IMG/VR virus record: IMGVR_UViG_3300042555_002696
Location: 1-20,273 of that record
From: a virus
DNA length: 20,273 nucleotides
Direction: 5' to 3' (one strand)
Shown here: positions 51-19,097 of the stretch, piece by piece
How the letters are laid out: each line of letters begins with the position of its first letter
How positions within the stretch are numbered: position 1 is the first letter of the stretch
Program-made: the position numbers and the translations under genes
The notes under the pieces: model-generated
Database searches by the model: none
Told to the model about the DNA's origin: nothing
What the model saw: the letters and a program-made list of their open reading frames with translations, nothing else

Positions 51-698
51 TTACTCTCTTGAATCGTCGTAGTTAGACGGCAGATCATGGTTTCGATCAT
101 TGTAGTCAAACATCGTTACGGCGGAATACTTGACTCCGCTTGTCACCGGTTTTGCAGCGTGGGCAAATATGTACGTTGACGGGAATAGCACGATGTCTCC
201 GTACTCTGGCTTGAACTCGAGATCAAGATACGGGAACCATAGTTCACCGCCGTCGTACTCGTCGTTAAGGTACATCACCGATGACATTGTGCACGTGTAC
301 GAAAACCCGTGATCCGTGTGCACCTGGAAGTGCTGCTTCTCACCATAGCGAACATAGTTGATCGCCTCCATATAGTTGAGCCCGATGTTGTACCGCTGCT
401 GATAGTCTTCGACACAGCGACGGAGATTGACAACCGTATCGTTGTATATGTTGCGAAGCTCTTCAAACTGTGGCGGAAGATGCTGTAGATGGATATCGCC
501 GATCTTGCAGTCCACACAGTCGCGGTATTCAGGCATCTTTTGTGCATAGCCGACAAGTGCCTCCATCCACATAAACGGTGGAGTTGTGCTTTTGCCGATT
601 GTCTTTTCTAGACGATTGACAAGCTCAAGTTCTTTTGGCAGTGCGTTCTTGTAGACAAGAACTCCTAGACGTGGGTCACTTAGATATATCGGGTTCAT
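51..698 (-). CDS. Prolyl-4-hydroxylase-like 2OG-Fe(II) oxygenase
   Basis: A 215-residue protein of the double-stranded beta-helix 2-oxoglutarate/Fe(II) dioxygenase superfamily, which couples oxidative decarboxylation of 2-oxoglutarate to hydroxylation of a substrate. The facial triad is visible as H127-x-D129 (QVHTDHG) and H180 (FAHAAKP), with the typical YLNDEYDGGEL strand between them. The 2OG-anchoring basic residue is K190 (SGVKYSA), ten residues after the distal His. Lysine at this spacing is what collagen prolyl 4-hydroxylases use, whereas the two neighbouring paralogs have Arg. Residues 1-110 are a variable alpha/beta region. It is the last complete gene of a four-oxygenase cluster, starting 3 bases after the upstream stop, with no clear Shine-Dalgarno. 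The substrate is unknown. The nearby collagen-like fibres are an inferred candidate. Confidence 0.85.
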   Translation of the reverse strand: MNPIYLSDPRLGVLVYKNALPKELELVNRLEKTIGKSTTPPFMWMEALVGYAQKMPEYRDCVDCKIGDIHLQHLPPQFEELRNIYNDTVVNLRRCVEDYQQRYNIGLNYMEAINYVRYGEKQHFQVHTDHGFSYTCTMSSVMYLNDEYDGGELWFPYLDLEFKPEYGDIVLFPSTYIFAHAAKPVTSGVKYSAVTMFDYNDRNHDLPSNYDDSRE

Positions 699-701
699 AT
701 G

Positions 702-1385
702 TCAGTCTACAGACGCAAAGAATCCTTGCGACATGTATCTCTCTCCTTTTGTCACTGGTAAGACACCGTGCGCCATGTCTTCATGCCACACATGTGACCA
801 AAGAATAAGCGAGTTTGCCTTTGGTTTGATCTTTACACCGATTACCGGTATGACCAGTTCTCCGCCTTCGTAGTCATCATTGACATAATAGACGGCGGAA
901 AAATCTGTACTTAAATCTGGATTGGCGATAAACGTCCCGTCGCAGTGGAGATTCATGTGCCCACCTGCAGGAGCTCGAGACAACCACGGTCCACTTTCAT
1001 ATATTGTCTGGTTTCCATGAATGTCAGAGATCAACCGTTGAGTGACGCGCAGCATCGTCGATAGCGTTTCACCTGTGTGTTCATCGTATAGAAAGTGTGA
1101 CGTATTTGTGAGATCAACCATGTAGATCTTGTAGTTATCGCCGTGCCGGGTTCCGGTGTCATTCTTGTCGTCAGAGAGATACGAGCGCTGGTACTTGATG
1201 TCATGACGCTGCGAGTGTGTGTATTCTTTGTAGCGCATGTTCGAGCCGTATCCGATAAACTCAAAACTGTCGCCTTTGGATCTACAGTATGCGTCTACAG
1301 TCTGCCAGTCGCTTTCTGGCAGAAAGTCATTAAAGACAAGCACGCGTGGAGATAGAGCGTTATGCGGCTTCTTTCCTGCAATCAT
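702..1385 (-). CDS. 2OG-Fe(II) oxygenase, prolyl-hydroxylase-like
   Basis: A 227-residue 2-oxoglutarate/Fe(II) dioxygenase counted from the ATG at 1385. This start is preferred because GAGG (1394-1391) sits 5 bases upstream and overlaps the stop of the preceding gene. A longer frame begins at 1433 but would overlap that gene by 41 bases and lacks such a site. In the 227-residue numbering the iron ligands are H147-x-D149 (LHCDGTF) and H206 (MAHGVLP), and the 2OG-binding arginine is R216 (KGERYMS). VYYVNDDYEGGEL marks the core strands. The N-terminal 90 residues resemble neither neighbour, so the three P4H-like enzymes have diverged outside the catalytic core. That fits different substrates or different sites, though no function is shown by the sequence. 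Confidence 0.85.
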   Translation of the reverse strand: MIAGKKPHNALSPRVLVFNDFLPESDWQTVDAYCRSKGDSFEFIGYGSNMRYKEYTHSQRHDIKYQRSYLSDDKNDTGTRHGDNYKIYMVDLTNTSHFLYDEHTGETLSTMLRVTQRLISDIHGNQTIYESGPWLSRAPAGGHMNLHCDGTFIANPDLSTDFSAVYYVNDDYEGGELVIPVIGVKIKPKANSLILWSHVWHEDMAHGVLPVTKGERYMSQGFFASVD

Positions 1386-1390
1386 TCTGT

Positions 1391-1394
1391 CCTC
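1391..1394 (-). promoter_or_regulatory. Ribosome binding site that sets the 1385 start
   Basis: The minus strand reads TGAGGACAGAATG: the stop TGA of the preceding oxygenase overlaps a GAGG Shine-Dalgarno, followed 5 bases later by ATG. This is the only clear ribosome binding site in the oxygenase cluster and argues for the shorter protein with a 7-base intergenic gap. Confidence 0.6.
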
Positions 1395-2010
1395 ATTTGA
1401 CTGTGTAGAACACCGGTGACGTAAATCGTTCACCCTGTGTAATTGTCTTTACGCCATGTAGATAATGTATATCACCGGGGTGGATGACCGCGAGACCAGG
1501 TTCAGGTTTGACCACGATGTCTAGCTCTGGATAATATAATTCACCACCCTCAAAGTCGTCATTGTAGTAGAACAACGAGTTTATGTCATAGGCCTGAAAA
1601 GGATTTGGAGATCCGTCGAGCAGTTGTTTGTCCGCGTGCGGCTGCTGCTCTATCCCGGGGAACCACCTGATGATACACGGTGGACGTTTCTCAAGTTCGC
1701 AGTTGAATAGCTCTCCGGCAACGATCGCCATCTTGTCTATATATGAATCAATCAGCGCGTGAATCTCAGGACTTAGTCTCTGCAAGATCTCGCTTGAGCA
1801 TTGTCGATCTTTCCAATACCAAGAGCTGTACGTGCACGTCCCATCTTCGTTGTACGTGTCCTCCATGCCGTCGGTAAGCCACTCGTTTATTGTCTTTGAA
1901 AACGCATAGATCTTTTCCACGTCTTCGCGGTCAATAAAGTTTCTCAATATCTTTACATTTTGGGGACCAGTGCCAAAATATCCAGGTGGGATCTTCCAGG
2001 GTGAGTCCAT
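1393..2010 (-). CDS. 2OG-Fe(II) oxygenase, prolyl-hydroxylase-like
   Basis: A 205-residue dioxygenase of the same superfamily as its two downstream neighbours. The facial triad is H125-x-D127 (QQPHADKQ) and H185 (YLHGVKT), with R195 (QGERFTS) ten residues later to bind 2-oxoglutarate. SLFYYNDDFEGGEL is the conserved strand pair. Residues 106-123 hold a Cys/Pro-rich stretch before the first iron ligand. The gene starts 12 bases after the stop of the PhyH-type gene, with no recognisable Shine-Dalgarno, and stops 7 bases before the next start. Genes of this type are known from cyanophage and other aquatic phage genomes, mostly without proven substrates. It is probably cytosolic and acts on a phage or host protein during infection (inference). 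Confidence 0.85.
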   Translation of the reverse strand: MDSPWKIPPGYFGTGPQNVKILRNFIDREDVEKIYAFSKTINEWLTDGMEDTYNEDGTCTYSSWYWKDRQCSSEILQRLSPEIHALIDSYIDKMAIVAGELFNCELEKRPPCIIRWFPGIEQQPHADKQLLDGSPNPFQAYDINSLFYYNDDFEGGELYYPELDIVVKPEPGLAVIHPGDIHYLHGVKTITQGERFTSPVFYTVK

Positions 2011-2022
2011 AGATTGATTGTA

Positions 2023-2739
2023 TCAATGGACTACGTACAAAATCTCACCGTGTTTTTTGAGCTTATCTGGATACTCTGCTTCTGGGTTTTTTGACGAGTT
2101 ATACCTACCGATCATCGTGTGTCGTTCAATCGATAGACTAGTAGGTCTGCTGCCACGGTGCATTGCGTATCCACTCCAAAGCACGATGTCACCTCGTTTA
2201 CATAAGAACTTACGAGGTTCTTGCGCATGATCTACTATAGCTTTTTCGTAGTACTTCCAGCAAGAAGTTGCGTTTTCTGCGCAATTTTCTTTTGTGATTA
2301 CGTTCCAATCAATGTTCCAAAGATGTGAACCTTCAATAATCTCAAGCGGTCCTGACTCTTCTGTTGCATCTTGCAGACAGACCTGAACAACCACAAACTC
2401 GTCCCACGGCTTATCATCTGCGCCAAAGTAGTCAATATGCCAGTCAATCTGCGATGACCCGCGTCTCGCCTCAATTATTTGCAGCATATACTGCTGCCCA
2501 GACAGCGCCAAAAATCTTACAAGTGTCTCATGACAGATGATGTTTCGTATGATCTTGCTATTTATATATGCGGCTCGATCTGCAATGTACGAGGCATACG
2601 GAGGTATATCTGTATATTTTTCTCGAGGATATTCTTTCTCGAATGCGGTGATCAGTTCTTCATCGATGACGTTCTCAAGAACCGCAAAACCATTCTTTTC
2701 GTATTCTCTATACAGCTCTGAAAGACGAAGATCGTCCAT
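2023..2739 (-). CDS. Phytanoyl-CoA dioxygenase (PhyH)-family oxygenase
   Basis: A 238-residue protein with the PhyH pattern rather than the P4H pattern of its neighbours. H101-x-D103 (DWHIDYF) is followed by a long insert containing SGPLEIIEGSHLW, then GDIVLWSGYAMHRGS with the distal H194, and R206 (SIERHTM) for 2-oxoglutarate. The N-terminus (YREYEKNGFAVLENVID) is the classic opening of this family, in which the chain enters the fold through a GFAV/GY-VV strand. Family members hydroxylate lipids, amino acids and small metabolites, and a few halogenate; the Asp ligand here argues for hydroxylation. The gene follows the fibronectin-III gene by 6 bases and begins the oxygenase cluster. Its substrate cannot be read from the sequence. 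Confidence 0.85.
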   Translation of the reverse strand: MDDLRLSELYREYEKNGFAVLENVIDEELITAFEKEYPREKYTDIPPYASYIADRAAYINSKIIRNIICHETLVRFLALSGQQYMLQIIEARRGSSQIDWHIDYFGADDKPWDEFVVVQVCLQDATEESGPLEIIEGSHLWNIDWNVITKENCAENATSCWKYYEKAIVDHAQEPRKFLCKRGDIVLWSGYAMHRGSRPTSLSIERHTMIGRYNSSKNPEAEYPDKLKKHGEILYVVH

Positions 2740-2745
2740 CGGCGT

Positions 2746-3444
2746 CTACTTAAATACTGGTGGAAAAAACGGAGGAAAGAATGGAGGGAAAAATGGAGGA
2801 AAGAATGGAGGGAAAAATGGAGGAAAGAATGGAGGAAAGTATGGAGGCGCAACCGGCGTGACAGAGTTTGAAGAAGCAGAGTTAGGGCTATTACCAAATG
2901 CGCTTTCCGCTCTTACAACAAATGTGTATGCGGTTCCGTTTGTAAGACCAGTTACCGTTAGTGAGGTGACGTTGATACCAGTAGTAACAAGACCACCAGG
3001 GCTTGAAGTAGCCCTATATGTAACCGCGCCTGCCGCTGCAGTTCCAGTTGCACCCTGTGTAAAGGTTACGGTTGCTTGAGCGTTTCCAGCGGTTGCTGTT
3101 CCAATTGTCGGTGCGCTTGGCGCAACGCCTGGCGTAACCGAGCTTGAAGCCGCTGAAGAATCCGACTGTACGCCGCTTGATGAGGTGGCTCGTACGGTAA
3201 AGGTATAGGCAGTTCCGTTAGTAAGACCAGTAACTACAAGAGGCGACGAACTTCCAGTTGCGGTAAACCCACCAGGACTTGAAGTCGCTGTGTATGTGAC
3301 TGTTCCTTTTCCTATGTAGGTAGAAGCTGTAAACGCGACACTTACCTGCGTGTTGCCGACAGTTGGAGTTCCAATTGTTGGAGTGGTTGGCTTTTTACCG
3401 CCACTGTCTCTTAATACCATAGTGGTTAGATCGTACCATGTCAA
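2746..3444 (-). CDS. Fibronectin type III repeat protein with Pro/Phe repeat tail
   Basis: A 232-residue likely virion surface protein. Two fibronectin-III domains are visible, roughly residues 18-106 and 107-196. Each starts with a PTIGT-(P/A)-T-(V/A)-GN strand and carries ATSSPGG, then V-TGLTNGTAYTF-VRA, then SSVTP. The last 35 residues are a low-complexity tail of about seven PPFF tetrapeptides ending PPVFK. Fn3 domains are common on phage tails, where they are thought to bind cell-surface carbohydrates. The start is uncertain: the frame can begin at TTG 3444, six bases after the fibre stop, or at ATG 3420, and neither has a good Shine-Dalgarno. No signal peptide is seen. The gene lies between the giant fibre and the oxygenases, probably in one transcript. 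Confidence 0.7.
   Translation of the reverse strand: MTWYDLTTMVLRDSGGKKPTTPTIGTPTVGNTQVSVAFTASTYIGKGTVTYTATSSPGGFTATGSSSPLVVTGLTNGTAYTFTVRATSSSGVQSDSSAASSSVTPGVAPSAPTIGTATAGNAQATVTFTQGATGTAAAGAVTYRATSSPGGLVTTGINVTSLTVTGLTNGTAYTFVVRAESAFGNSPNSASSNSVTPVAPPYFPPFFPPFFPPFFPPFFPPFFPPFFPPVFK
2759..2848 (-). repeat. 12-bp tandem repeat encoding the PPFF tail
   Basis: Read on the plus strand, seven 12-base units span 2759-2842 with a half unit after. Two unit types, GGAGGAAAGAAT and GGAGGGAAAAAT, alternate, giving a 24-base higher-order period across 2771-2818. The edge units are degenerate (GGTGGAAAAAAC and GGAGGAAAGTAT). On the coding strand each unit gives Pro-Pro-Phe-Phe. The unit length is a multiple of three, so copy-number slippage would keep the frame. 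Confidence 0.9.
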
Positions 3445-3450
3445 CCATCA

Positions 3451-6400
3451 CTAGGCTGACAAGTCTCCAACGGCAACCCAGGTATCAGTTGCGCGCTTGA
3501 TCAGTGTAACCATTGACCACTGCGCACGTGTCTTCAGACCAGGTGTTCCGTTGATAGTTACGCCTGCCACCTGTGGAGTAATTGTGCACTGACCGGCGCC
3601 TGTCTGGAGAACTTGAATTTGAGAACCTACCGCAAACGCAACGTTTGCATTGGTAGGTACTGTAAGTACGTTTGCACTTGCCACGTTCATTTCTACTATC
3701 TTGTTCTTATCTGCTAGAACAAGTGTATATGACGCCGTCTGCGCGCTGGTTGAGATGTCAGCAAGTTTGCCAAGGTCAATCGCGGCAGTTGCGCTGATGT
3801 CAGCATTGACAATTACACCTGATCCAATCGCCGTGACACCAGCATTTGTGATTGTAACGTCACCTGTAACCGACACATACGTAGGCACACCGGTTGCGTT
3901 TGCAACTGGTATCTGCGCAGATGTTCCTGACGCAAGTTTGCTCAGTGCGATCGCGGCGGACGCGCTAACGTCTGCGTTGACGATAACACCCGTACCGATC
4001 GCAGTGACGCCAGCATTTGTAATCGTGACATCGCCGGTTACCGCTACAGACGTTGCAACGTTAGTTGCGTTACCTACAAGAATGTTTCCGCTCGTAAGAG
4101 CCGCGAGCTTGCTGTAGTCAATCGCCGCGCTAGCGTTTACATCTGCGTTGACAATTGCGCCTGATGCGATTGCAGTAACGCCTGCGTTTGTAATCGTGAC
4201 ATCTCCAGTAACTGCAACTGATGTCGCCACGTTAGTTGCGTTACCTACAAGAATGTTTCCAGATGTAAGTGAGTTTGTAAGAGCGCCAGAAAGTGTTACG
4301 GCGCCTGTCGAAGATATCGTCGCGCCACCGCTCATTGTCACCGCAGTAAGTACTCCGGTTGCATTTGCTACCAAGATCTGACCAGAGGATGCAGATGCAA
4401 GTTTGCTGTATGCGATTGCGGCTGACGCGTTTACGTCTGCGTCTACGATTACACCCGACGAGATTGCTGTTACACCAGTGTCGGAGATCGTAATGTCACC
4501 AGACTCTGACACCCATGTCGGTACGCCTGTTGCGTTTGCCACCAAGATCTGACCAGATGTGCCTGACGCCAACTTGCTTACCGCAATTGCCGCAGTCGCA
4601 CTAACATCTGCGTCAACAATGACGCCTGATCCAATCGCCGTTACACCTGCTCCAGTGATTGTTACGTCGCCGGTAACCGTGGTCGCCGTAATAACACCAG
4701 TAGTGGTTGTTCCGAGAAGTAACTGACCAGCAGTTGCGTTAGCAAGTTTGCTATGAGCTATAGCAGCAGAAGCATTAACATCGTCGTTAACAATTACTCC
4801 AGAGGCAATAGCCGTTACACCTGTATCAGAAATTGTTACGTCTCCAGTTTCAGCAACTGCTGTTGGGACTCCAGACGAGTTGTAAACGATGATGTTTCCA
4901 GCGGTGCTTGTTGCAAGTTTGCTCAGTGCAATTCCAGCAGAAGCGTTGATATCAGCGTTTGTTATTGCGCCAGCCGCGATTGCCATCGCGCCAGCGTTAT
5001 CAATAGTTACATCACCAGATGTAGACACATACGTAGGCACCCCGGTTGCATTGGCGACAATGATCTGCGCGGAGGTACCGGACGCAAGCTTGCTTAGTGC
5101 AATGGCGGCCGTCGTGCTTATATCTCCATTGGCAATTGTTCCGTCAAGAATCATCGCGCTTGTAACCGTGCCCGTCGGCAGGGTTACGGTACCTGTAAAC
5201 GTAGGACTAGCAAGCGGTGCGTAGTAGGTGCTAGCTTGTCCGTTTAGATACTGCGCGTTGAGGTTTGCAACCAATGTTGTCGAGTTAACAGCAAGCGGTG
5301 CGGTGCCAGTTGCAATTGTTGACTCAAGTGTGCGAACAACAACAGTTGAAGGTTCATAAGAAACGTTTGCCGTGTCAATTGGACTTACAGGCTCAGGCGC
5401 ATAGTTTGAGAAAAACTTCCACTTGCCGTCTGTAGCATCGCGGAACACGCCAGCATGATGGTACGTACCGTCATTGTAGTTACCGGCAATACCAAGGTCT
5501 GGGTTTGAGATGTTGCTGTTGTTATTTAAGTAGATAAATGGATCATCAATTGACAGACTATTTTGTGTATACGTATTGATATTTCCAGTGAGGTTTAAGT
5601 TTGCACCAATTGTTACGTCACCAGTAGTTGTCAAGCTTCCAAATGTAACGCTAGCTGTATTTGATACTGACTGGCCAATTGCAATCGTTGGTGTTGAACC
5701 TTCACCGGTATTTGAAGTTACCGTTACGCCAGTTCCACCGATGACTGACGCCGTGTAGTTTCCAGTTGTATCTGTTCCAAGAGCAACAGAGTTTGCCGCA
5801 ATTGTTGCAGAACCACCAGATGTAATTGTGATGTCTCCAGACACCTTGCCAAACACGTAGTCTGTAACTCGAGTAACTGCCGCCTTGCGGTTTGTTCCAG
5901 CACCACCGTCGTCGACAATGATCAAGTCTGCGTCAGCAAGTGCGGCTCCGATATCTGTGCCGCCGTCGATGTTGAGTGCCGAGAGCGACACCTTATCTGC
6001 AGTTGAAATCGTGGCAAGCTTTGTATCTACAATTGCAGCTGACGCGTTGATGTCACCGTTGACAATTGTTCCATCGGCAATCATTGTGCTCGTTACGGTT
6101 CCAGTATCACCTGTTGTGACAATAGTTCCTGTCACGTTTGGAATCGTGATTGTTCTATCAGCTGTTGGATCTGTAACAGTTAGTGTTGTCTCGAAGTTGT
6201 CTGGTGTTGCGCCTTCAAACACGACGTTGCCAGTGAGGTTCATGTCTACAAATGTCGGACTTGCTGACGTTGCAACACTCTGGCCAATTGCGATTGAAGG
6301 TGCGGATCCCTCTCCGGTATTTGACGAGATCGTGACGCCGGTGCCCGGTACGACAGTTCCTACGTAGTCACCAGTTGTGTCTACACCAAGTGCAACTGAG

Positions 6401-9400
6401 TTTGCCGCGATCGTTGTTGAGATGGCGGCGTCCGCTGAACCGTTAAACGATACAGAGCCAGTGACATCTCCTGTGAGAGAGATTGTTCGCGATGTTGTAA
6501 GTGTACTTGCGCTACCGGCAACGTTACCTGTGATATTTGCGGTGACTGTGTGGAACGAGACGTTTGATGAAGTACCAACAGCTTGTCCAATTGAGATAGA
6601 CGGTGCTGAACCTTCTCCAGTGTTTGAACTGATTGTTACACCAGTTCCAGGTACAACGGTACCGACATAGTCGCCAGTTGTATCTGTTCCCAACGCCACA
6701 GAGTTTGTTGCAATCGTTGCTGCAATTGACGCAGTCGCTGAACCGTCAAATGTTGCTGATCCTGTGACATCGCCTGTCAGCTGAATTGTGCGTGCGGTCG
6801 CAAGTTTTGTTGCAGTGCCGGCGTTTCCAGAGACGTTGCCAGTCACATCGCCTGTGATGTTCGCGGTGACGGTGTGGAATGCCACGTTTGCACTTGTCGC
6901 GACACTCTGTCCAATCGCAATCGAAGGAGATGAACCCTCGCCAGTGTTACTTGAGATCGTTACACCAGTGCCAGGTACGACTGTCTGTACGTAGCTTCCT
7001 GTTGTGTCTGTTCCTAGCGCGACGCTATTTGCACCAACGGTCGCGGTGATTGTTACATCAGATGAGCCGTCAAACGAAGCTGAACCACTGAGATCACCAC
7101 CAAGTGAGATCGTGCGTGCTGTTGAAAGAGTATTTGCTTTTCCAGCAGTACCTGAGATATTGCCGGTGATGTTTGCTGTAACTGTGTTGAACTGCACGTT
7201 TGCACTGGTTGCAACATCTTGACCGATCGCGATTGACGGAGATGAGCCTTCGCCGGTGTTTGACGAGACTGTTACACCGGTGCCGGGTACAACAGTTGAA
7301 AGATAATCTCCAGTTGTATCTGTTCCAAGCGCTACTGAGTTTGCCGCGATGGCTGTACTAATGGTTGCGTCAGCTGTGCCGTTGAATGATGCTGTTCCTG
7401 TTATGTCACCAGATAGTGTGATGTTGCGTGAGGTCTGCAATGCGGTTGCAGTGCCGGCGTTTCCAGAGACGCTACCAGTTACGTTGCCGGTAACATTGCC
7501 TGTAACGTTGGCTGTAACAGTATTGAATGACACGTTCGCGGATGTTGCAACGCTTTGACCGATCGCAATTGACGGTGCTGAACCTTCACCCGTATTTCCA
7601 GTGATTGTTACACCAGTACCTGGGACAACTGTCGCGAGGTAGTCGCCTGTTGTCTGTGATCCAAGCAAGATCTCAACGTTAGACCTTGTGTATCCAAGAA
7701 TGCGGCCATACCCGTCGGTTGTAACGTCTTGGATAAACACGGTGTTTGATCCGGTAAGAACATTGTTCTGCGTGATTGCTGGAAGGTCAATCGCATTTGA
7801 TGTTACAAGAATTCGTTCGTTGCTTGCTGTTGTTACGTTGATTGTGCGACCTGTTGATGTAAGACCGTTACCGATACCGAGACCAGCAACTCCACTTATT
7901 TCTTCAAACGTAATGCTGTCTGTTCCAACAACATGAATGCTTCCTGAGATAGATCCAGCTGACGATACAGCAAGGAAGCGTAGTCCCCACTCTGATCCAC
8001 TTGCAACATAAAATACGTCGCCAAACAAAACTTGATCTGTTGTTCCACCGTCAAAGTCTGTTGTTCGAGTAAGTTGCCAGTACTGACTCACGCCGCCAGT
8101 TGCTGTGACTTCATAGATTCCATTGTGGACCGTGTTTGACTGATTCTGTACGCAGATGCGGTTGCCAACTATCGGAGACACAGTGTCAACTGTTAGTGCA
8201 CCGTATGTTGTTGCCGTAAGCGTTGCGCCAGTCCCAGTACTGCCGTTTTGTCCAGCAGACCCGGCGGTGTACGTGGGCGAATTTGGAAGAGCTATTGTTG
8301 TTGCAAGACGAACTGGCTTGTGGAACGTCTCCTGTCCAAGTCGCGTCTCAAGAGTTGCTGTTGTGGTAAGCGGAGAATATGTCGAACCGTTTGTTGTTAT
8401 TTCCCAAACATCGCTTGATTCGTTCCAACGAAGCAACACATTTGTTGAGTCGCCACGTTCAATCTCAATGCCGGCGTTCAGTGTTGGCGAACCCGTGGCT
8501 CCAGAGTTGAGAACAACGATGTTGTCTTCAATAGTAAGTGTCTCAGTGTTGAGTGTTGTTGTGTTTCCGCTAACTGTCAGGTTGCCTGACACGGTGACGT
8601 TTGCGAATGTTACATCTGCCGTTGTTGCAACGCTCTGTCCGATGGCGATTGTTGGGGTTGCGCCTTCGCCAGTGTTGCTTGAAACCGTTACACCAGTTCC
8701 ACCGATAACTGTTGCGGTGTAGTCACCAACAGTGTCAGTGCCTAGGTTGATCTGGTCATTTACCCAAAGTGTTCCGTTGTACTTAAGGAAGTCTCCTGAT
8801 GTTTTGTCAACAATAGAAACATCGTGCAATTCGTCTAATTCGTACCCGTTTTGAGTAGCGACATAGATAATTCCGTTATTGGTTGCACGGACAACAACAC
8901 CAATAAATACCAAGTGGTCTGGGGCTACTGGTTTTGTTTTAGTAAATGCACCGTTCTCACCCAACCATAGAACATCACCAGCGGTATAACCAACGCTTAA
9001 GTCAATACCGTCAACATAACCACGAGTAACAATTGGACCATTGTTTGATGCAGTGATGTTTGCGCCAGCAACACCAATTGTTTTAGAGGATGTGGCATCA
9101 GAATTATTATCTGCACGTTTTACTGTTGCATGGTCACCAGTGGCACCAAACAAGTAAACGCACGTACCAGTGGTAATAGTGGTTGATTCTACGTTGCGAA
9201 CATAGGTAACAGTTGAGGCATAGGCGTTAACCCAGTTTGTTCCGTTGTACTCAAGAGTTTGAAATTCTGCTGGGTCAGTAATGACTACATCGCTGAGAAC
9301 ATCGATACTTCCAGATGCTCCGGTTGGACCAGTTGCTCCAGTTGCGCCTGTAGGACCAGTTGGTCCAGTGACGCTACTTGCCGCGCCGGTTGGGCCGGTT

Positions 9401-10878
9401 GGGCCTTGTGCACCTGTAGGGCCAGTGACGCCTTGAATACCTTGCGCACCAGTGGGACCTGTTACACCTTGAATACCTTGCGCACCGGTTGCGCCTGTAG
9501 GACCAGTGACAGTTGAGGCTGCGCCTGTCGCGCCGGTTGGACCTGTTACACCTTGTACGCCTTGCGGGCCTGTTGCTCCGGTTGCACCTGTTGCACCGGT
9601 TGGGCCAGTTACGCCTTGCGCGCCGGTTGGGCCAGTTGCACCTGTTGCACCTGTAAGACCGGCTGGACCTGTTGCGCCTTGCGCACCTGTTACACCTTGT
9701 ACGCCTTGCGCACCGGTTGGGCCAGTTGCACCTGTTGCACCGGTTGGGCCAGTTACGCCTTGTACGCCTTGCGCGCCGGTTGGACCTGTTGCTCCAGTAG
9801 CACCAGTTGCGCCTGTAGGACCAGTGACAGTTGAGGCTGCGCCAGTTGCACCTGTCGGACCCACGCCCGTTGTCATCAATGCTGCAGAAAACCAAGTGCC
9901 TTGACCAGCGCCACCCCACTGCAGAACTCTTGACGAAGAGTCACCGTTGTACGCAGTAAAGTCCACGTAGTCTGTTGAACCATTTAGGTAAACAACTCGA
10001 CTTCCACCCTGCGATGACCCTGAACCTGTCACTGTTTGGTTTTGGAAGATAGCAGATGTACTACTATTTTTACGAATCTGCACGTTGTATTGATTAGTAG
10101 TTGCTGTAGCGAGTTGCCACCAAACGTGAAGTGCTATGTTGTAGTAGCCAGCAATTGTTGGCGTGAACTGTTTTGTGGTTGCATTCCACCAGTTATTGGG
10201 ATCAATGTCATCAACAAAAGAAATAAGAACATCATTGGTGTTACTTGCGATTGACTGGTCGCTAGATAATTTTCCTGTCACGACAGTGTCGGTTGCAGAG
10301 ATGTTTGCGCTTGGTCCAGTCGCGCCTGTTGCGCCAGTCGCACCTGTAGGACCTGTTGCGCCTTGCGGACCTGTAGGACCTGTAACAGTTGAGGCTGCGC
10401 CTGTCGCGCCGGTTGGACCTGTTACACCTTGTACGCCTTGCGGGCCTGTTGCTCCGGTTGCGCCTGTTGGACCCGTGTCACCTTGTATACCTTGTGTACC
10501 TGTCGCGCCGGTTGGACCTGTAGGACCAGTCGCACCTGTAGGACCTGTTGCGCCACCGCCAGTGGCTATGGTCGCGGCGACAAACTTAGTTCCGTCAAAC
10601 TTAAGTATTTGATCGGTTGTTGCTCCGGTCGGATCAATCTCAATACTGTCTACAAAGAGTGTTGGTACTTTAAAAGTATCATCAGTACGAAGTACATTGG
10701 CCTCATCACGATAGAGGTTTACATCGCCAGCAGACGCGCCATCGCCCCAAACAAGACGACCGCCCGCTTCAACTTTTAAACGAGCATATGTGTCGGCATC
10801 AACATAGACGGTTACGGCGTCAGAACTAGCAGACGTTAGCTGCTTAACAGTAATTGGTACTGTGAATTTCTGTGCCAC
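3451..10878 (-). CDS. Giant modular collagen-like tail fibre / adhesin
   Basis: A 2475-residue protein, almost certainly a virion fibre or adhesin. Approximate modules: N-terminus 1-105; collagen-like Gly-x-Thr tract 107-189; C1q/TNF-like jelly-roll domain 190-336 ([27 protein letters not shown]); second collagen-like tract 337-525; a compact domain 526-690; a phage structural module near 720-860 ([20 protein letters not shown]); a module at 860-1035 shared with the neighbouring 433-residue fibre; about five 100-110-residue repeats at 1070-1510 ([20 protein letters not shown]); a cyanophage-like module at 1750-1850 ([20 protein letters not shown]); 57-residue repeats at 1920-2370; and a C-terminal cap. 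The start is GTG at 10878, supported by an MAQKF N-terminus shared with the adjacent gene; a GAGG lies unusually close to it. It is by far the largest gene here, with TAG at 3451. Confidence 0.85.
3790..5115 (-). repeat. Array of 57-residue (171-bp) fibre repeats
   Basis: About seven full copies lie in the C-terminal third of the giant fibre, each following (N/S)A(S/T)[42 protein letters not shown]. One copy carries an insertion (around 4210-4370), so the spacing between landmarks there is longer. Most copies differ at the DNA level, but 4058-4089 and 4229-4260 are identical over 32 bases with a 171-base offset, indicating a recent duplication or conversion. Confidence 0.8.
6250..7680 (-). 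repeat. Array of 100-110-residue fibre repeats
   Basis: Five successive copies of a module start near 7665, 7335, 7020, 6690 and 6390 on the minus strand. Each carries [47 protein letters not shown] and then a TARTI.L.GD.TGS..F.G.AD stretch. Spacing is 300-330 bases. A related copy opens at about 5785 and another at about 8740, showing that the same unit was reused along the protein. Confidence 0.75.
9488..9525 (-). repeat. 38-bp exact direct repeat in the second collagen tract (pair with 9806-9843)
   Basis: The 38 bases at 9488-9525 recur exactly at 9806-9843, offset by 318 bases (106 codons). They encode the [10 protein letters not shown] interruption that punctuates the collagen-like tract. 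Part of the repeat overlaps the 77-bp repeat. Confidence 0.85.
9509..9585 (-). repeat. 77-bp exact direct repeat, copy in second collagen tract
   Basis: These 77 bases are identical to 10385-10461, by direct base-by-base reading, and differ from that copy at both flanking positions. The copy lies in the second collagen-like tract of the giant fibre gene. The offset between copies is 876 bases, exactly 292 codons. Confidence 0.9.
10385..10461 (-). repeat. 77-bp exact direct repeat, copy in first collagen tract
   Basis: Identical to 9509-9585 and in the same reading frame. It lies in the first collagen-like tract, so the two copies flank the whole C1q-like domain of the giant fibre. Confidence 0.9.
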
Positions 10879-10926
10879 GACCTCAATCGCTTTCTATGCT
10901 GTGACCCCTCAAGGTCTGTTTAAGTA

Positions 10927-12228
10927 TTAGCCTTGTACGACGATTACGTAATCACCAGAAGAAATTGTTCCATACATGGTGACTGTTACCGTGTTACTGT
11001 TGGTGCGGACGGTGTCACCGATTACGGTATTTCCCGAAGACACTTCGTAAATCTGTATCATTACATCACTTGTATTGAAGTTGTGAGTAACTACTGTTGT
11101 TGACGTTCCGCCACTGCTTGCGGCGCATGCTTGTTTAGCGGTGCGAGCAAGTGCAGGTGTACTTGTGGTGCGTCCCGTCGACTCTGATGAAGCCGAAGCC
11201 AAGTTGGTGCGAGCGCCAGATTCAGTAGAAGAACCAGTACCACCAGCGGTTACTGCAACGTCAGTTCCGTTCCATACACCAGTGGTGATTGTTCCCAAGG
11301 TGGTGATGCTTGATTGACCAACGTAGTTGGCAGAAATATCAACGGCGTCTGAACTAACCGAGATTCGATCAGTGGTACCGCCAACATTGATTGTGTTTCC
11401 AGTCTTGCTAAGACCGTCACCAGCAAGAATGGTTCCAGCAACTGAGAACAAAGCCCAGTTAAGTGCGGTTGAACCAACGGTGATTGTTCCATTGGTGGTA
11501 AGTACCCAACCGCTGTCTGCGTTGAGTGTTCCTTCTTCAACGAAGGTAAACGCGCCCGGTGTTACTTCTGCGGTGGAGTCAAAGTCAGTTGCCCGAGTTG
11601 GTGCTCCTGTAGCATTAACAACATAGATGCCGTTTTCAGACGCTGTACTTTGGTCTTTAACGAGAACACGGTCACCAGTTGCAAGAGTCACCGTGGTGTC
11701 AAGTGTGTCGCCATTTTCAAGTCCTGTGGCGAGTGTGATTGGTCCAGTTGTCGCGGCACGAACTGACTGCTTGACATCAAGACCTGAACGAGCTGCATCT
11801 ACATAAGCCTTGGTTGCGGCATGGTCATCAGCAGTTGGTGTACCGAACTTAGCCTGACCGTTAGAGTCACGGATAACTAGTTTGTTCGCAGTAGCATCAG
11901 ACGTAGCATCTGCCAACTTTGAGAAGTCTGAAGATGAGAGAAGACCCGCAATTGATGATGTAGCAAGGTTTGGCGTAATCGTAATTGCGCCGTTGGATTC
12001 ATTGATAGTGAGGGCACTGGACTGTGAACCAGCCGAGGTGACACCTGTGACCATCTTTCGCCATGCTGAGGCGGTAACATCGTAGACTTTAATAGTACCT
12101 TCAGTGCTATTAAAGATCATTCGACCGTCAAATAGGTTTGTATTAGGGTCGGTGCCTACTACTTCAAAGGTGCCGTTAATCAGTTGATTCTGATTAAGAT
12201 CAATGTTAGTTAGAAACTTCTGAGCCAT
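10927..12228 (-). CDS. Phage tail fibre-like structural protein
   Basis: A 433-residue protein. It begins MAQKFLTNIDLNQNQLINGTFE, shares the MAQKF opening with the giant fibre, and contains a motif common in phage fibres (DDHAATKAYVDAARSGLDVK, about 135-155). Residues about 155-310 hold a module with GDRVLVKDQSTASENGIYVV, TRATDFDS, and GDGLSKTGNTINV. This aligns by eye with residues 860-1035 of the giant fibre. The C-terminal 60 residues (VVTHNFNTSDVMIQIYEV ... SGDYVIVVQG) resemble the end of the adjacent 254-residue-frame protein and may be a small beta tip domain. AAGGAG lies 5 bases before the ATG and overlaps the upstream stop, an excellent ribosome binding site. It is probably a receptor-contact or baseplate-associated fibre. 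The exact role is unknown. Confidence 0.75.
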   Translation of the reverse strand: MAQKFLTNIDLNQNQLINGTFEVVGTDPNTNLFDGRMIFNSTEGTIKVYDVTASAWRKMVTGVTSAGSQSSALTINESNGAITITPNLATSSIAGLLSSSDFSKLADATSDATANKLVIRDSNGQAKFGTPTADDHAATKAYVDAARSGLDVKQSVRAATTGPITLATGLENGDTLDTTVTLATGDRVLVKDQSTASENGIYVVNATGAPTRATDFDSTAEVTPGAFTFVEEGTLNADSGWVLTTNGTITVGSTALNWALFSVAGTILAGDGLSKTGNTINVGGTTDRISVSSDAVDISANYVGQSSITTLGTITTGVWNGTDVAVTAGGTGSSTESGARTNLASASSESTGRTTSTPALARTAKQACAASSGGTSTTVVTHNFNTSDVMIQIYEVSSGNTVIGDTVRTNSNTVTVTMYGTISSGDYVIVVQG

Positions 12229-12237
12229 TAGAACTCC

Positions 12238-12972
12238 TTATGTGAGATAGGCATAACCTGAGAACGCTGTTGTGAAACTTACCACAATTTGCGTGGTGCT
12301 TATATATGTAATTTCTCCAAATACAACGGTTTTAGCGCTATCAACAACAGTTACTGACGGATAACCACCTAAAGCATGGTTAATTGTCCATGTTGTCGAC
12401 GCTGTCCCTTGAGTATGCACGTGACGCGTTGCCGTAGGATAGACAAGGTTGAGAACTTGGTTTGGCGGAGTTCCCGTAATGCTGGCAGATGCCGTCCCTG
12501 TTGTAACTGTTCCGATGGTTAACGTATTTCCTGGGCCAGTAGGACCTGTTGCGCCTTGCGGACCAGTTGCACCTTGTGGGCCAACAGGCCCTTGCACTGA
12601 TGACGGTGGAGGCGCGTATGGATCTCCGTCTGTTACAGTTCCAAGATCGTTAGAGATGTCGGTTGGAGAACCGTCACCTTCGATAAGATACGCGAAGAAC
12701 GAGATTGGTGGCGCACCATAGATGTGTACGTGGACTTGGTACGCCCAGTTAGTTGGCGTAAGAAGTGGATTATCTGTTGTCGGCAGCTCGGCTGAAAATG
12801 ACCCACTTGAGTCAAGTATATATTGGATTGGGCTGTCGACAACTACAGCATCGTCTGTGTCTACGACAACTGTTGTTGGGGTAAACGTTACTTTTCCTCG
12901 CGCCGCGCCACCAGATGGCCCGGTATACGTGCCTGTAACAACCCGCGTTACAACATCTTGCGACCAACTCAC
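12238..12972 (-). CDS. Short collagen-like tail protein
   Basis: About 244 residues from the GTG at 12972, or 254 from a GTG at 13002. The former is preferred because GGAG (12983-12980) lies 7 bases upstream. The N-terminal 110 residues form a beta-rich domain (VVTGTYTGPSGGAARGKVTFTP ... NWAYQVHVHIYG) seen at the start of many phage minor tail proteins. About seven collagen-like triplets follow ([12 protein letters not shown]), then a GNTLTIGTVTTGTASASI linker typical of collagen-containing phage proteins. The last 60 residues (WTINHALGGYPSVTVVDS ... FSGYAYLT) form a beta tip resembling that of the next gene. Its stop overlaps the Shine-Dalgarno of the 433-residue fibre, so the two are translationally linked. 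It is the first gene of the long leftward structural operon. Function in adhesion is inferred. Confidence 0.7.
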   Translation of the reverse strand: MSWSQDVVTRVVTGTYTGPSGGAARGKVTFTPTTVVVDTDDAVVVDSPIQYILDSSGSFSAELPTTDNPLLTPTNWAYQVHVHIYGAPPISFFAYLIEGDGSPTDISNDLGTVTDGDPYAPPPSSVQGPVGPQGATGPQGATGPTGPGNTLTIGTVTTGTASASITGTPPNQVLNLVYPTATRHVHTQGTASTTWTINHALGGYPSVTVVDSAKTVVFGEITYISTTQIVVSFTTAFSGYAYLT

Positions 12973-12979
12973 CAGGCAA

Positions 12980-12983
12980 CTCC
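12980..12983 (-). promoter_or_regulatory. Ribosome binding site supporting the 12972 GTG start
   Basis: GGAG on the minus strand, 7 bases before GTG 12972. The alternative GTG at 13002 has no purine-rich site upstream. This favours a protein starting MSWSQDVV. Confidence 0.45.
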
Positions 12984-13032
12984 AGTCCGTGCAGCGTCCC
13001 ACACAGGTGCTAAATAGCGAAACTCAACCAGA

Positions 13033-14650: not shown

Positions 14651-17287
14651 ATGTCGGCGTGGGATCAAGCAAACGGACGATTAGGACCAGCTGCAAAATG
14701 GTATGCCGAGCACGGCTGGAAGATCATGCCCTGCTATGGGATCTCAAACGGACGCTGTACATGTGGCGGCACGCACGCTGAACCTAAAGATGTTGGCAAG
14801 CACCCGAGCATTCCCGAGTGGAACTCGCAGGCGACAAGCGAGGTTCACGAAGTTGAGAAGTGGTGGCCGGACGGAGGCGAAAATAACGTCAGCGTCTTCT
14901 GTCGCCCAAGTGGGTTCTTTGTAATCGACATCGACCCACGCTCTGGTGGACCTGATTCGTTTGAAAAGTTTGAGTCTTTAGTTGAAGGCGCGTTGCCGCC
15001 AACCGTTGAGGCGATCACCGGCGCATACACAATGAACGGCAAGGCGACGCGAGGACGTCACCTTTTCTATCGCTGTGACGAGTCTGAAAATCTTGTCGGC
15101 AACCTAAAGAAGTCTGGACTAAACGGAATTGACATCAAGCATAACGGATATGTATTGATTGCGCCGTCACGTCACTTCTCAGGTGTGTGCTACGAGTGGG
15201 TCAAGGGCAAGGCCCCGTGGGAGATTGAGATTGCACAGGCTCCTGAAGAGTTGCTTGTCACTCTGCGAAAGCGCAGCAAGAGTTCATCAACAGGCGTCGG
15301 CACAGGCGACTGGGGTTTCATGGACGACCTTGAGTGGGGCGGCCAGCGCGTTGACATTGAGCGTTTACTTCAAGAAGGAATTGACGAAGGATCGCGCGCG
15401 GTTGATATCTATGCGCTTACATGTGCACTTGCAAACAAGTTTCCAGTAAACACAGAAGCAGGTAAGCTCGCTGTTGAGACGATGATGATTCGTTTCAACG
15501 CTGAGAAAGTTCGTCCGCCTCTAGAACTTGAAGGTCAAGGCGGACTGATGATGCACGTCCGTCGTGCAATTCAATTTGTTCTTGATAATCCAAAGACAGA
15601 GCGTCTCTGGCCTGGTCTTCAAGAGTGGGCACAAAAGTCTCAAGACGAATCACGTTCAACATTTCCTAAGCCTGCAAATCTTCCTTCACAGAAGACATCG
15701 CAAAAACCGGCGCAGAACAGCATGAACACTGGAACGTCGAATCTTCCAGGGACAATCGGCGGTTCTGTTCTTTCGTCAGTCGAAGACGGTGACTCACTCG
15801 CTGATGCAAGTAAGTTATCAAATATAGACGTACCGAAAGACCCTGACGCACTTAGTGAAGAAGAAGGTGGAGAACCTGGTAAACGAACATTGACAGACGT
15901 AGGTAACGGACGTCGACTCATTGACTCGTTTGGTTCTGCAGTTCGATACACACCTGGTCTTGGCTGGTTCCACTGGGACGGTGGGTATTGGAAGCCAGAC
16001 GTTGAAAGTCTTGAGATGCGCGAACTTTCTAAAAAGGTTGCGCCGATCGTTGCAAGTGAAGTTGTTCACTATCTTGATGATGCAGATAAGCAATCAGAAG
16101 TTATTAAGTGGGCTCAACAGGCAAAGTCAAACTCGCGTATCAATGGTTTGATTGAAAGCGCAACATCTGACCCACGTATCTTGATCGACGTTGAGTCGTG
16201 GGACAGCGATGAAACGTTGCTCGGTGTGTCAAACGGAGTTATTGATCTACGTACAGGAGAACTTCTTCGTGGTCGACCAGATCTATACATCACGCGACGC
16301 GCGCCTGTAGCATATAACCCAGGTATTCGCAACGTCCGTTGGGAACAGTTTATTGACTTTGCAACTGGCGGAGATAAAGAATTGCAAGAGTGGTTGCAGA
16401 AAGCTGCAGGCTACTCGCTGACTGGTTTGCGAACATATGACGTTATGTTCATGGTCTACGGTCCGCCGGGTTCGGGTAAGAACACAATGGTTGAAGCTTT
16501 GGTTAAGGCGATGGGTACATCACAATACGCATGGCCACTTGACTCAAGCATTCTCGCTCAGGGTGATGGACAAGCGCACGGTTCGGATCTGTATCACTGG
16601 GCTGAGTTGCGTGGACGTCGTATGGTGTGGGTTGACGAATTACCAGACGGCGAACGAGTAAAAGAAAACTCGATCAAGAAACTTACAGGTTCATCTGAAA
16701 TCTCAGCGCGTTCACCTGGTGAAAAACCGTTTACGTTCCAGTCTCGCGCAAAGTTGTGGGTAACTACAAACCACAGACCGATCATCACTGATGACGCGAT
16801 GTGGCGACGTATTCGACCAATTCCACTTGGAAACGTTCCAGAAAATCCAGATCCAGACTTGAAGCACTACATCTTTGATCCCGAAGGTGCTTTGCCGGCA
16901 GTTCTTGCATGGGCAGTTGAAGGTGCAATCAAGTTACTTGGATCAAGCGCACGCGATGCACTTGGCTGGTGCAAGGCTGTTAGCGAGTCGGCAGAGATGT
17001 ATCGCAAGAACGAAGATCGCATTGGCTTCTTCTTAACAGAAGAAACAAAAGAATCTGAGAATACCGCAACGCCGGTCAAGTCACTATATGCTGTTTATCG
17101 TGCGTGGAGCGAAGAACGTGGTGAACGTGCGATGACACAGATCGCGTTTCAGCGTAAACTTTCCGATCGTGGACTGCAGATTGATGGACACGGATCACGC
17201 GCACAGATACTCGGTCGACAACTACTGCCACGCGCAGTGTCTACGGGCGAGGTTGACTGGGGAACAGTTCAGAGGTTTGCACGATGA
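14651..17287 (+). CDS. Bifunctional primase-polymerase / SF3 (D5/P4-type) helicase
   Basis: An 878-residue replication protein. The N-terminal 200 residues are a prim-pol domain of the archaeo-eukaryotic primase type: D93-x-D95 (FVIDIDP) for metal binding, H137 (GRHLFY) and IDIK. A Cys/His cluster (C28, C36, C38, H42) may bind zinc. A linker around 320-420 is polar and low in complexity. Residues about 440-580 match the D5-N region that precedes SF3 helicases. The helicase has Walker A GPPGSGKN (604-611), Walker B VWVDEL (D662, E663), sensor WVTTNHRP (N707) and an arginine cluster WRRIRP (R719-R722). Such fusions synthesise primers and unwind DNA at the phage origin. The stop overlaps the next ATG (ATGA). 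The start lacks a clear ribosome binding site. Confidence 0.9.
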   Translation: MSAWDQANGRLGPAAKWYAEHGWKIMPCYGISNGRCTCGGTHAEPKDVGKHPSIPEWNSQATSEVHEVEKWWPDGGENNVSVFCRPSGFFVIDIDPRSGGPDSFEKFESLVEGALPPTVEAITGAYTMNGKATRGRHLFYRCDESENLVGNLKKSGLNGIDIKHNGYVLIAPSRHFSGVCYEWVKGKAPWEIEIAQAPEELLVTLRKRSKSSSTGVGTGDWGFMDDLEWGGQRVDIERLLQEGIDEGSRAVDIYALTCALANKFPVNTEAGKLAVETMMIRFNAEKVRPPLELEGQGGLMMHVRRAIQFVLDNPKTERLWPGLQEWAQKSQDESRSTFPKPANLPSQKTSQKPAQNSMNTGTSNLPGTIGGSVLSSVEDGDSLADASKLSNIDVPKDPDALSEEEGGEPGKRTLTDVGNGRRLIDSFGSAVRYTPGLGWFHWDGGYWKPDVESLEMRELSKKVAPIVASEVVHYLDDADKQSEVIKWAQQAKSNSRINGLIESATSDPRILIDVESWDSDETLLGVSNGVIDLRTGELLRGRPDLYITRRAPVAYNPGIRNVRWEQFIDFATGGDKELQEWLQKAAGYSLTGLRTYDVMFMVYGPPGSGKNTMVEALVKAMGTSQYAWPLDSSILAQGDGQAHGSDLYHWAELRGRRMVWVDELPDGERVKENSIKKLTGSSEISARSPGEKPFTFQSRAKLWVTTNHRPIITDDAMWRRIRPIPLGNVPENPDPDLKHYIFDPEGALPAVLAWAVEGAIKLLGSSARDALGWCKAVSESAEMYRKNEDRIGFFLTEETKESENTATPVKSLYAVYRAWSEERGERAMTQIAFQRKLSDRGLQIDGHGSRAQILGRQLLPRAVSTGEVDWGTVQRFAR

Positions 17288-17742: not shown

Positions 17743-17771
17743 GTCAGGGTTGAGGATCTTCCTCCCCTGAC
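17743..17771 (+). terminator. Strong hairpin between convergent genes
   Basis: GTCAGGG-TT-GAGG-ATCTT-CCTC-CCCTGAC folds into an 11-bp GC-rich stem with a 2-base bulge and a 5-base loop. On the plus strand it is followed by a partly U-rich run (TTAGTCTGTCTTT), so it could end the primase operon. It also covers the last codons of the convergent recombinase gene; on that strand there is no U tract. Confidence 0.4.
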
Positions 17772-18442
17772 TTAGTCTGTCTTTCGCCCTTGTCAACATA
17801 CTGCTTGATTGTCGTCGGATACCAGCGTTTCTCAAACGGAGTCTTGATGCCTTCAGCATTGAACTTATTGGCGATCTTTGCGTATGACATTCCGAGGGTG
17901 CGAAGCTCGATGATCTTTGAGTACAGCTCGTCTGTGATCATACGCTTGGGGCCAAGATCTACTCCCCACTTAAGTCCCTTTTCTCGGCGATCCTTATGAA
18001 CGTCTTTCTGACGCTCAGCAATGATTGAACGTTCCATCTCCGCAAGTGCCGACATGATTGTGACGACAAATCTTCCCTGGTAGGTCGAGGTGTCAAGGTT
18101 GAGGTCAAGCATGACGATACGCCAGTCATTCTTGTTGGCGCGATCTACAATGCTGAGGAAGTCTTGGGTAGATCTTGCTAGCCGGTCGATGCGAGTAACA
18201 AACAACGCTGTCGCCTCTCCTTTATCAAGACGGTCAAGCGCCTCGCGAAGTACGGGTCGACCTTTGATCGACTTGCCTGATCTGCCTTCTTCCTTGAGCA
18301 GTTCCACCTTTGTAAATCCAGCAGAGTTTGCCGCACGCTTGAGATCTCGTTCTTGCGCGCCTAACGACATGCCGTCGGTCGCCTGCATCTGCGTCGAAAC
18401 ACGCGTATAGAGCAGAGCGATGTTTTTCTTCTTTGTGGCCAT
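17744..18442 (-). CDS. Serine recombinase (resolvase/invertase family)
   Basis: A 232-residue site-specific recombinase. The catalytic domain (about 1-150) has the nucleophile S16 in LYTRVSTQMQ with R14, TRIDRLAR (R87, R90), and the E-helix EMERSIIAERQK. The C-terminal part (about 168-218) contains ITDELYSKIIELRTLGMSYA then KIANKFNAEGIKTP, a helix-turn-helix. It is much shorter than large serine integrases (usually over 450 residues), so resolution, inversion or dimer resolution is more likely than classic large-serine integration. AAGGG lies about 7 bases before the ATG. It lies alone on the minus strand between the replication operon and a tail gene pair. No matching crossover site is identified. 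Confidence 0.9.
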   Translation of the reverse strand: MATKKKNIALLYTRVSTQMQATDGMSLGAQERDLKRAANSAGFTKVELLKEEGRSGKSIKGRPVLREALDRLDKGEATALFVTRIDRLARSTQDFLSIVDRANKNDWRIVMLDLNLDTSTYQGRFVVTIMSALAEMERSIIAERQKDVHKDRREKGLKWGVDLGPKRMITDELYSKIIELRTLGMSYAKIANKFNAEGIKTPFEKRWYPTTIKQYVDKGERQTKSGEEDPQP

Positions 18443-18560: not shown

Positions 18561-19097
18561 CTAGGTCAGCCCGTTACCGTAAATGATCCACTTAGTTGAT
18601 GTAACCTTCGTTGCTGTTGCCACACCGTACCGCGCAAGTGTCCGCGTTCCAGTGGATCCTGTCGCTGCAAGCTGCAAAGTGTCTGTTGTAATCGCGATTG
18701 AGATGCTCGTTGCTGCGCCTAAGTCATTGAATATGACAAACGTAGTCCCAATCTCATAGGCAACCGCAGTGTTGGCAGGGATAGTAAAAATAGCCGATGT
18801 TGGCGTTCCAGTGACGTAAATGCTTTTTCCAGCGTCTGACGCAGCAAACGTATAGGTAAATGTCCCAGAAGCTACTCGTGCGTTTTGAGGCGTACCAAGG
18901 TAACCAACCACTGACGCGGACGTTGTCACTGTTCCAGATGTCGTGCCTGACGGAGCTACTGGCGTCGCCATTGGGCCTGTTGCCCCTTGTGCGCCCTGTG
19001 GTCCTTGAAGATTTGAGACAACTACCTCTGTTAGACTTGTCAACGACTCGACAGTTGTACTTGCGGTGTTGACATATACAATACTAGTATCAGCCAT
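18561..19097 (-). CDS. Tail-associated structural protein with short collagen-like segment
   Basis: A 178-residue protein. Residues 1-30 are Thr/Val-rich (MADTSIVYVNTASTTVESLT), followed by four collagen-like triplets ([11 protein letters not shown], 32-42) and then a beta-rich domain (FTYTFAASDAGKSIYVTGTP, FTIPANTAVAYEIGTTFVIF). It ends VTSTKWIIYGNGLT. That last domain has the layout of the C-terminal cap of the giant fibre (TLVLAD ... [20 protein letters not shown] ... [11 protein letters not shown]), so the two may be homologous tips. GGAGG lies 6 bases before the ATG. The start overlaps the upstream gene by 8 bases. It is probably a minor fibre or tip protein; the exact role is unknown. 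Confidence 0.7.
   Translation of the reverse strand: MADTSIVYVNTASTTVESLTSLTEVVVSNLQGPQGAQGATGPMATPVAPSGTTSGTVTTSASVVGYLGTPQNARVASGTFTYTFAASDAGKSIYVTGTPTSAIFTIPANTAVAYEIGTTFVIFNDLGAATSISIAITTDTLQLAATGSTGTRTLARYGVATATKVTSTKWIIYGNGLT

Follow-up and report, generated by a model that had tools for sequence, protein, structure and literature searches.

A multi-oxygenase cassette paired with a Pro-Pro-aromatic-Phe tail protein in viral genomes: candidate prolyl hydroxylation of a phage fibre

As a precedent for viral enzymes that act on viral proline-rich repeats, the prolyl 4-hydroxylase (P4H) of Paramecium bursaria chlorella virus 1 (PBCV-1) comes closest; it was reportedly proposed by Eriksson in 1999, in a study cited in PMC7019647 and PMC9301287, to act on the proline-rich repeats of viral proteins. 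In the present study, we analysed a window of 20,273 bases, i.e. the whole of IMG/VR record IMGVR_UViG_3300042555_002696, a genome fragment in which four genes for 2-oxoglutarate (2OG)-Fe(II) oxygenases (here ox1, ox2, ox3 and a PhyH-like enzyme) lie behind a group of tail-type genes. The last of these tail-type genes encodes a protein ending in an array of Pro-Pro-aromatic-Phe units (PPxF). As judged from sequence comparison, the oxygenases probably constitute a phage post-translational modification cassette for the PPxF tail, the most likely modification being prolyl hydroxylation.

The PBCV-1 enzyme (vCPH, PDB 5c5t) is a virus-encoded protein with the P4H fold and ranks high in the Foldseek comparison of ox3. 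However, it is a single enzyme of a eukaryotic virus, with other repeats and no DUF6065 protein, whereas the window has a multi-enzyme cassette beside the repeat protein. The P4H of Bacillus anthracis (3itq, 5hv0, 5iav), which includes the best solved profile match of ox1 and has the common HxD...H...K/R core, is instead the product of a cellular single gene, acts on collagen-like and EF-Tu substrates, and is about 15-17% identical to the ox3 model across the fold. Human prolyl 3-hydroxylase 1 (P3H1; 8k0m), which ox3 matches best both by profile and by Foldseek, differs in working as a P3H1/CRTAP/PPIB complex on collagen, and is 15% identical to ox3. P3H1, B. anthracis P4H, PHD2 and similar fold matches act on peptidyl proline.

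Among phages, the oxygenases of PHROG 61, the family that matches all of ox1-3, are present in several copies per genome in cyanophages and marine phages (PMC3037559), but they are scattered, and no PPxF array was present in the two regions examined. The roles suggested for phage 2OG oxygenases are in 2OG/nitrogen metabolism and in DNA repair (PMC3037559), and a Baltic survey calls the use of viral P4H 'cryptic' (PMC9301287). In the phage collection searched, no isolate with close relatives of ox1 or ox3 was found, the cyanophage and marine single-cell matches being below 60% identity with partial coverage. In the literature searches made, no earlier description of a PPxF repeat paired with oxygenases was found.

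PPxF arrays and oxygenases in viral genomes

The PPxF tail protein of the window has two fn3 domains, and comparison with relatives places its true start likely at 3420 (MVLRDSGGKK...). The DNA pattern for three consecutive PPxF units had five matches in the window and none in 100 shuffles. Across relatives, both prolines and the last Phe are nearly fixed, and x varies among Phe, Tyr and His; the number of repeats is not constant even among the near-identical contigs L034-L037. A (PP[F/Y/H]F)n end is retained while the N-terminal part of the protein varies, to the point that the proteins of L038-L040 are no longer of the fn3 type, and the PPxF tail proteins comprise fn3 proteins, L038/L094-related proteins without fn3, and others. 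Candidate model substrates of this kind would be (PPFF)7 and (PPYFPPFFPPFF)n.

A degenerate DNA pattern that encodes three PPxF units and is blind to oxygenases was run against IMG/VR, as was a matched control pattern for collagen-like GPT/GAT tracts. Each scan gave at least 120 stretches, and all scan-based counts on PPxF and collagen loci given here are among the matches listed. Cassette-type oxygenases were detected with one hidden Markov model (HMM), which had no matches in reversed proteins. Of 64 evaluable PPxF loci, 52 had an oxygenase within 2.5 kb downstream of the array, whereas only 1/50 had one within this distance upstream. The corresponding figures for the collagen tracts were 6/56 and 0/68. 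The downstream excess at the PPxF loci is significant both against their upstream side and against the collagen loci (Fisher values of 1e-15 and 3e-19 in the two comparisons, relatedness being ignored), and oxygenase density was 3.2 per 10 kb at PPxF loci vs 0.06 at collagen loci. After merging of tail proteins at least 70% identical to each other, an oxygenase was still downstream in 25/34 PPxF clusters compared with 6/49 collagen clusters (PPxF upstream, 1/34). Collagen tracts were tried as the conserved partner and were rejected as the main association by this matched scan.

Because the HMM had been trained on cassette members, the test was repeated with Pfam PF13640 on whole records, 40 per set. 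Matches over the cut-off were present in 36 PPxF records (29 with five or more, often 5-11 copies) vs 4 collagen records. Only one collagen record had five or more matches; it had ten, and no other collagen record contained a PPxF array, which in this one is immediately followed by an oxygenase. Three records (G020, G029 and G033; loci L055, L074 and L086) have their PPxF array and a group of 5-6 clustered oxygenases over 20 kb apart, which indicates that the link is not merely local synteny. The arrays of these three records are embedded in long fibre-type proteins.

The cassettes themselves were also used as a starting point. A search of IMG/VR with ox1 gave 42 loci, and relatives down to about 50% identity retain the order fibre - fn3/PPxF - oxygenases. 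Where an ox1 or ox3 orthologue had 3 kb or more of sequence upstream, a PPxF array was present in 42/49 loci and Gly-X-Y tracts in 5/49. Judged by these five cassettes and the four collagen records mentioned above, the enzymes do not co-occur with Gly-X-Y tracts in the way expected of a collagen-hydroxylating system. The initial annotation of the window had proposed a fibre-hydroxylation cassette acting on collagen-like fibres, and had named co-occurrence across phages as a check. The cassette gains strong comparative support from this check, but its partner is the PPxF-tail protein, to which the annotation alluded only in an aside, and not the Gly-X-Y fibres. It is consistent with this that the paper on the 'Ca. 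Nanopelagicales' phage isolates, which have collagen-like proteins, makes no mention of oxygenases (PMC10202952).

At the collagen loci, a single oxygenase is weakly, and separately, in excess on the downstream side compared with upstream (p=0.007), and collagen hydroxylation may occur in other phages. A single P4H-like oxygenase near a collagen-like gene was observed in L196, L259, L260, L265, L267, L175 and L233. Cellular contigs scanned for PPxF-oxygenase pairs contained few arrays; the contigs from metagenome-assembled genomes that have oxygenases (L297, L305, L317) look phage-like, although this is unproven. On the whole, enzymes and repeat are consistently paired across viral genomes, the link to the substrate being a statistical one.

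The oxygenases and their neighbours in the window

The coordinates of the features are collected in Table 1. The enzymes ox1, ox2 and ox3 all have the HxD...H iron triad that the 2OG-Fe(II) superfamily carries on a double-stranded beta-helix, with a basic residue some 10 positions beyond the distal His. In ox1, these are HTD 127-129, H180 and K190, with Lys at the 2OG-binding position, and the catalytic residues are invariant in an alignment of 15 diverse relatives; the best match of the ox1 profile to solved structures (3itq/5hv0) has an E-value of 4e-7. The residues of ox2, whose true start is probably inside the annotated frame, are HCD 163-165, H222 and R232. Those of ox3 are H125, D127, H185 and R195, and its iron triad is invariant in the ortholog alignment. 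Against Pfam PF13640, ox3 scores 22.2 bits, below the curated cut-off of 27. Its AlphaFold2 model (pLDDT 90) has a prolyl-hydroxylase-type fold, for which Foldseek ranked P3H1 best, then the PBCV-1 prolyl hydroxylase, B. anthracis P4H and PHD2, with algal P4H also matched; comparison of its profile with solved structures likewise gave P3H1 and then B. anthracis P4H. The PhyH-like enzyme carries the HxD motif as HID 101-103 and belongs to the PhyH family.

By the profiles of ox1 and ox3 and the fold of ox3, these two enzymes are closest to characterised peptidyl-prolyl hydroxylases, with modest E-values and with PiuC-type hydroxylases also near. The curated NCBIfam equivalogs (PKHD-type dioxygenase, FlmC) gave at best 35.5 bits against a cut-off of 143 bits. 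Protein clustering placed the ox3 ortholog group in 75 loci and that of ox2, which is absent from some cassettes, in 24/163 loci. The PhyH-like group occurs in 15 loci, a minority of the cassettes, mostly directly behind the tail gene, and its close IMG/VR relatives are limited to two contigs near-identical to the window.

From 13002 to 51 on the minus strand, the fibre-type genes and then the four oxygenase genes form one tight same-strand block, with intergenic gaps of 3-48 bases and a 41-base overlap of the ox2 and ox3 frames. The close packing had been noted in the initial annotation, and its description of four consecutive oxygenases (three P4H-like, one PhyH-like) behind fibre genes agrees with the open reading frames (ORFs), the Pfam and PHROG matches and the catalytic residues. 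Its three collagen-like or Pro-rich fibre genes have to be revised, because the tail-type genes upstream are four, the fn3/PPxF protein is not collagen-like, and the 254-aa protein has only seven triplets; the 2475-aa protein is indeed collagen-like. The Gly-X-Y tracts of the latter, within about 9304-10554, are of 18, 8, 34, 14 and 7 triplets, mainly GAT (25) and GPT (22), with Pro at X and mostly Thr at Y, as had been described.

Table 1. Features of the 20,273-base window
Feature	Position	Strand	Basis or remark
ox1, P4H-like 2OG-Fe(II) oxygenase, 215 aa, core enzyme	51..698	minus	Pfam PF13640 4e-13
ox2, P4H-like 2OG-Fe(II) oxygenase, up to 243 aa, accessory	702..1433	minus	Pfam PF13640 2e-12
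ox3, 2OG-Fe(II) oxygenase, 205 aa, core enzyme	1393..2010	minus	PHROG 61 '2OG-Fe(II) oxygenase' 1e-13
PhyH-like 2OG-Fe(II) oxygenase, 238 aa, accessory	2023..2739	minus	Pfam PhyH 8e-19, 69 bits vs cut-off 22
fn3-domain tail protein, 232 aa, C-terminal (PPxF)n	2746..3444	minus	Pfam fn3 6e-12; PHROG tail families; orthologs
(PPxF)n array PPYF(PPFF)6PPVFK, inferred substrate region	2749..2847	minus	Pattern count and conservation
2475-aa tail-fibre protein with collagen-like Gly-X-Y	3451..10878	minus	Pfam Collagen 1.6e-28
433-aa virion/tail-fibre protein	10927..12228	minus	PHROG 30390 8e-49, 2647 3e-43, 11518 tail fibre 2e-24
254-aa tail-fibre-type protein, 7-triplet collagen-like stretch	12238..13002	minus	PHROG tail families; Pfam Collagen 0.027
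Prim-Pol + D5-type helicase protein	14651..17287	plus	Between fibre block and serine recombinase
Serine recombinase	17744..18442	minus	
Second small protein with Gly-X-Y stretch	18561..19097		4 triplets
SLT-domain (lysozyme-like) protein	19694..20272		Truncated by contig end

Cassette composition and host

Clustering of all proteins, combined with cassette order, distinguished two arrangements. Arrangement A, that of the window, is tail - optional PhyH/GPx - ox3 - (ox2) - ox1 - DUF6065 - others, and arrangement B is tail - c16 - c12 - c4 - DUF6065 - c5 - others. Profile comparison relates c4 and c16 to ox1 (39-41% identity, E<1e-50) and c5 to ox3 (37%, E=2e-62). Among the PPxF loci with at least 5 kb of downstream sequence, a set that includes loci found via ox1, the ox1 family was present in 60/67, the ox3 family in 58/67, DUF6065 in 56/67 and all three in 56/67. 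Oxygenases make up 148 of the 282 ORFs of at least 120 aa located in the 8 kb behind PPxF genes. As for DUF6065, its AlphaFold model has a pLDDT of 65, its dUTPase-like Foldseek matches (TM about 0.3) are too weak to read, and literature searches found no paper on it.

Past its left end, the window is continued by two other contigs, which share 4.1 and 4.9 kb with it at 99.95% identity and carry more oxygenases. In one of them, a near-identical relative 90 kb long, the region beyond the left edge of the window contains DUF6065, a glutathione-peroxidase (GPx)-like protein, an AurF-like diiron protein, a methyltransferase and more 2OG oxygenases. The AurF-like gene (diiron N-oxygenase, below the Pfam cut-off; L003:8728-9837) is inside the cassette of this relative and is adjoined by the methyltransferase gene (L003:9840-10493). 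GPx-like proteins are found repeatedly in cassettes (39 and 20 loci; L003:7825-8445, L019:7775-8449) and perhaps give protection from the peroxide of uncoupled oxygenase turnover. In arrangement B, a DUF6171-type small protein is encoded after the PPxF gene and ahead of the first of the oxygenases (L070:4005-4247, about 18 loci). An N-terminal HIPRTSGTN-type sulfotransferase-like domain was observed in L035:3009-3785 and in L028:3993-5468, where it is fused to a 2OG oxygenase; the sulfotransferase reading (Pfam E=0.025) is below the cut-off and was not used as evidence.

WhiB genes, of which there are two in the 90-kb relative, were found in 13/40 PPxF records and in 10/16 of a partly overlapping set. 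They indicate an actinobacterial host, and at least some of these phages, which are large viruses of aquatic bacteria, probably infect Actinobacteria.

Interpretation of the pairing

The hypothesis with which the analysis of the window began, i.e. that the enzymes hydroxylate the Gly-X-Y tracts of the large fibre, can draw on the location of this collagen-like fibre directly upstream in the window and on the small excess of oxygenases at collagen loci. It appears quite improbable, considering that the cassettes are accompanied by PPxF arrays far more often than by Gly-X-Y tracts, that 36/40 collagen records have no PF13640 match over the cut-off, and that the tracts have their prolines at X and mostly Thr at Y, where the classic target is a proline at Y. 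A different possibility is that the region behind the fibres is a cargo hot spot for auxiliary metabolic genes, with host metabolites, nucleotides or 2OG pools as the targets of the oxygenases. The variable number of oxygenases and the interspersed GPx, methyltransferase and AurF-like genes would be in keeping with cargo, and cyanophage 2OG enzymes have been proposed to modulate 2OG levels (PMC3037559). We consider this unlikely, because it leaves unexplained the specificity for PPxF over collagen, the ox1/ox3/DUF6065 core found in two arrangements, and the co-occurrence of arrays and enzymes that are far apart; in addition, a homologue in cyanophage S-CAM9 sits among replication genes, without PPxF.

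It is also conceivable that the repeat is the substrate but that its aromatics are modified instead of proline (Phe, Tyr or His at x, or the fixed Phe), e.g. by beta-hydroxylation. The pattern of conservation, with x variable between nearly fixed positions, would be compatible with this, as would the fact that some PKHD-type relatives (PiuC/YbiX) have other targets. However, the closest folds and profiles are those of prolyl hydroxylases, and the presence of the cassette is independent of Tyr or His in the repeat, which makes such a modification very unlikely.

Prolyl hydroxylation of the PPxF tail has itself several points against it. The 2.5-kb threshold was fixed after a first look at the distances, and the loci are related; moreover, a single broad N-terminal family accounts for most PPxF tail proteins, which implies few independent origins. 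Three of the 40 PPxF records (G018, G046 and G051), all fragments, have PPxF without PF13640. Many cassettes hold 6-14 oxygenases, which is more than the obvious need of a tetrapeptide repeat, so that some of them may act elsewhere. In addition, one fold serves many targets in 2OG enzymes, and similarity to prolyl hydroxylases therefore does not fix the target. Finally, an unpublished analysis cited in PMC7019647 reported no hydroxyproline in PBCV-1 virions.

We infer that the cassette enzymes are active as hydroxylases, and likewise their substrate, the proline target and a role in adsorption. If the PPxF tail is what they modify, the core pair of ox1 (P4H-like) and ox3 (prolyl-hydroxylase-type fold) would, with DUF6065, hydroxylate the repeat, probably at both prolines of each unit; with one enzyme P4H-like, the other P3H-like and two prolines in succession, each enzyme might take one of them. 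The modification would take place before or during virion assembly. In place of a very hydrophobic repeat of Pro and aromatics, the fibre would then end in a hydroxylated and probably extended rod, which might be stiff and more soluble or adhesive. The lineage-specific enzymes (ox2, the PhyH-like enzyme, the AurF-like enzyme and others) would extend or vary the oxidation, and the modified repeat, carried on the tail fibre, would serve in contact with a host that is probably actinobacterial. A broader proposal, which we regard as possible but rather doubtful, is that of a new class of fibre, wide in aquatic phages, in which a (Pro-Pro-aromatic-Phe)n polymer is matured by a multi-oxygenase line, with DUF6065 as an essential component, into a hydroxyproline-rich adhesive or rigid tip.

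A specific and conserved candidate substrate makes the target of a viral P4H-like enzyme directly testable, with one peptide and two or three enzymes, and draws in DUF6065 as a likely partner. The pairing also advises caution when phage 2OG oxygenases are labelled automatically, e.g. as 'host nitrogen metabolism'. If the broader proposal of a new class of fibre is true, the polymer would be a phage counterpart of hydroxyproline-rich structural proteins such as the extensins of plant cell walls or mussel adhesives. The proposed prolyl hydroxylation, if true, would mean that phages have multi-enzyme cassettes dedicated to the chemical processing of their fibres after translation.

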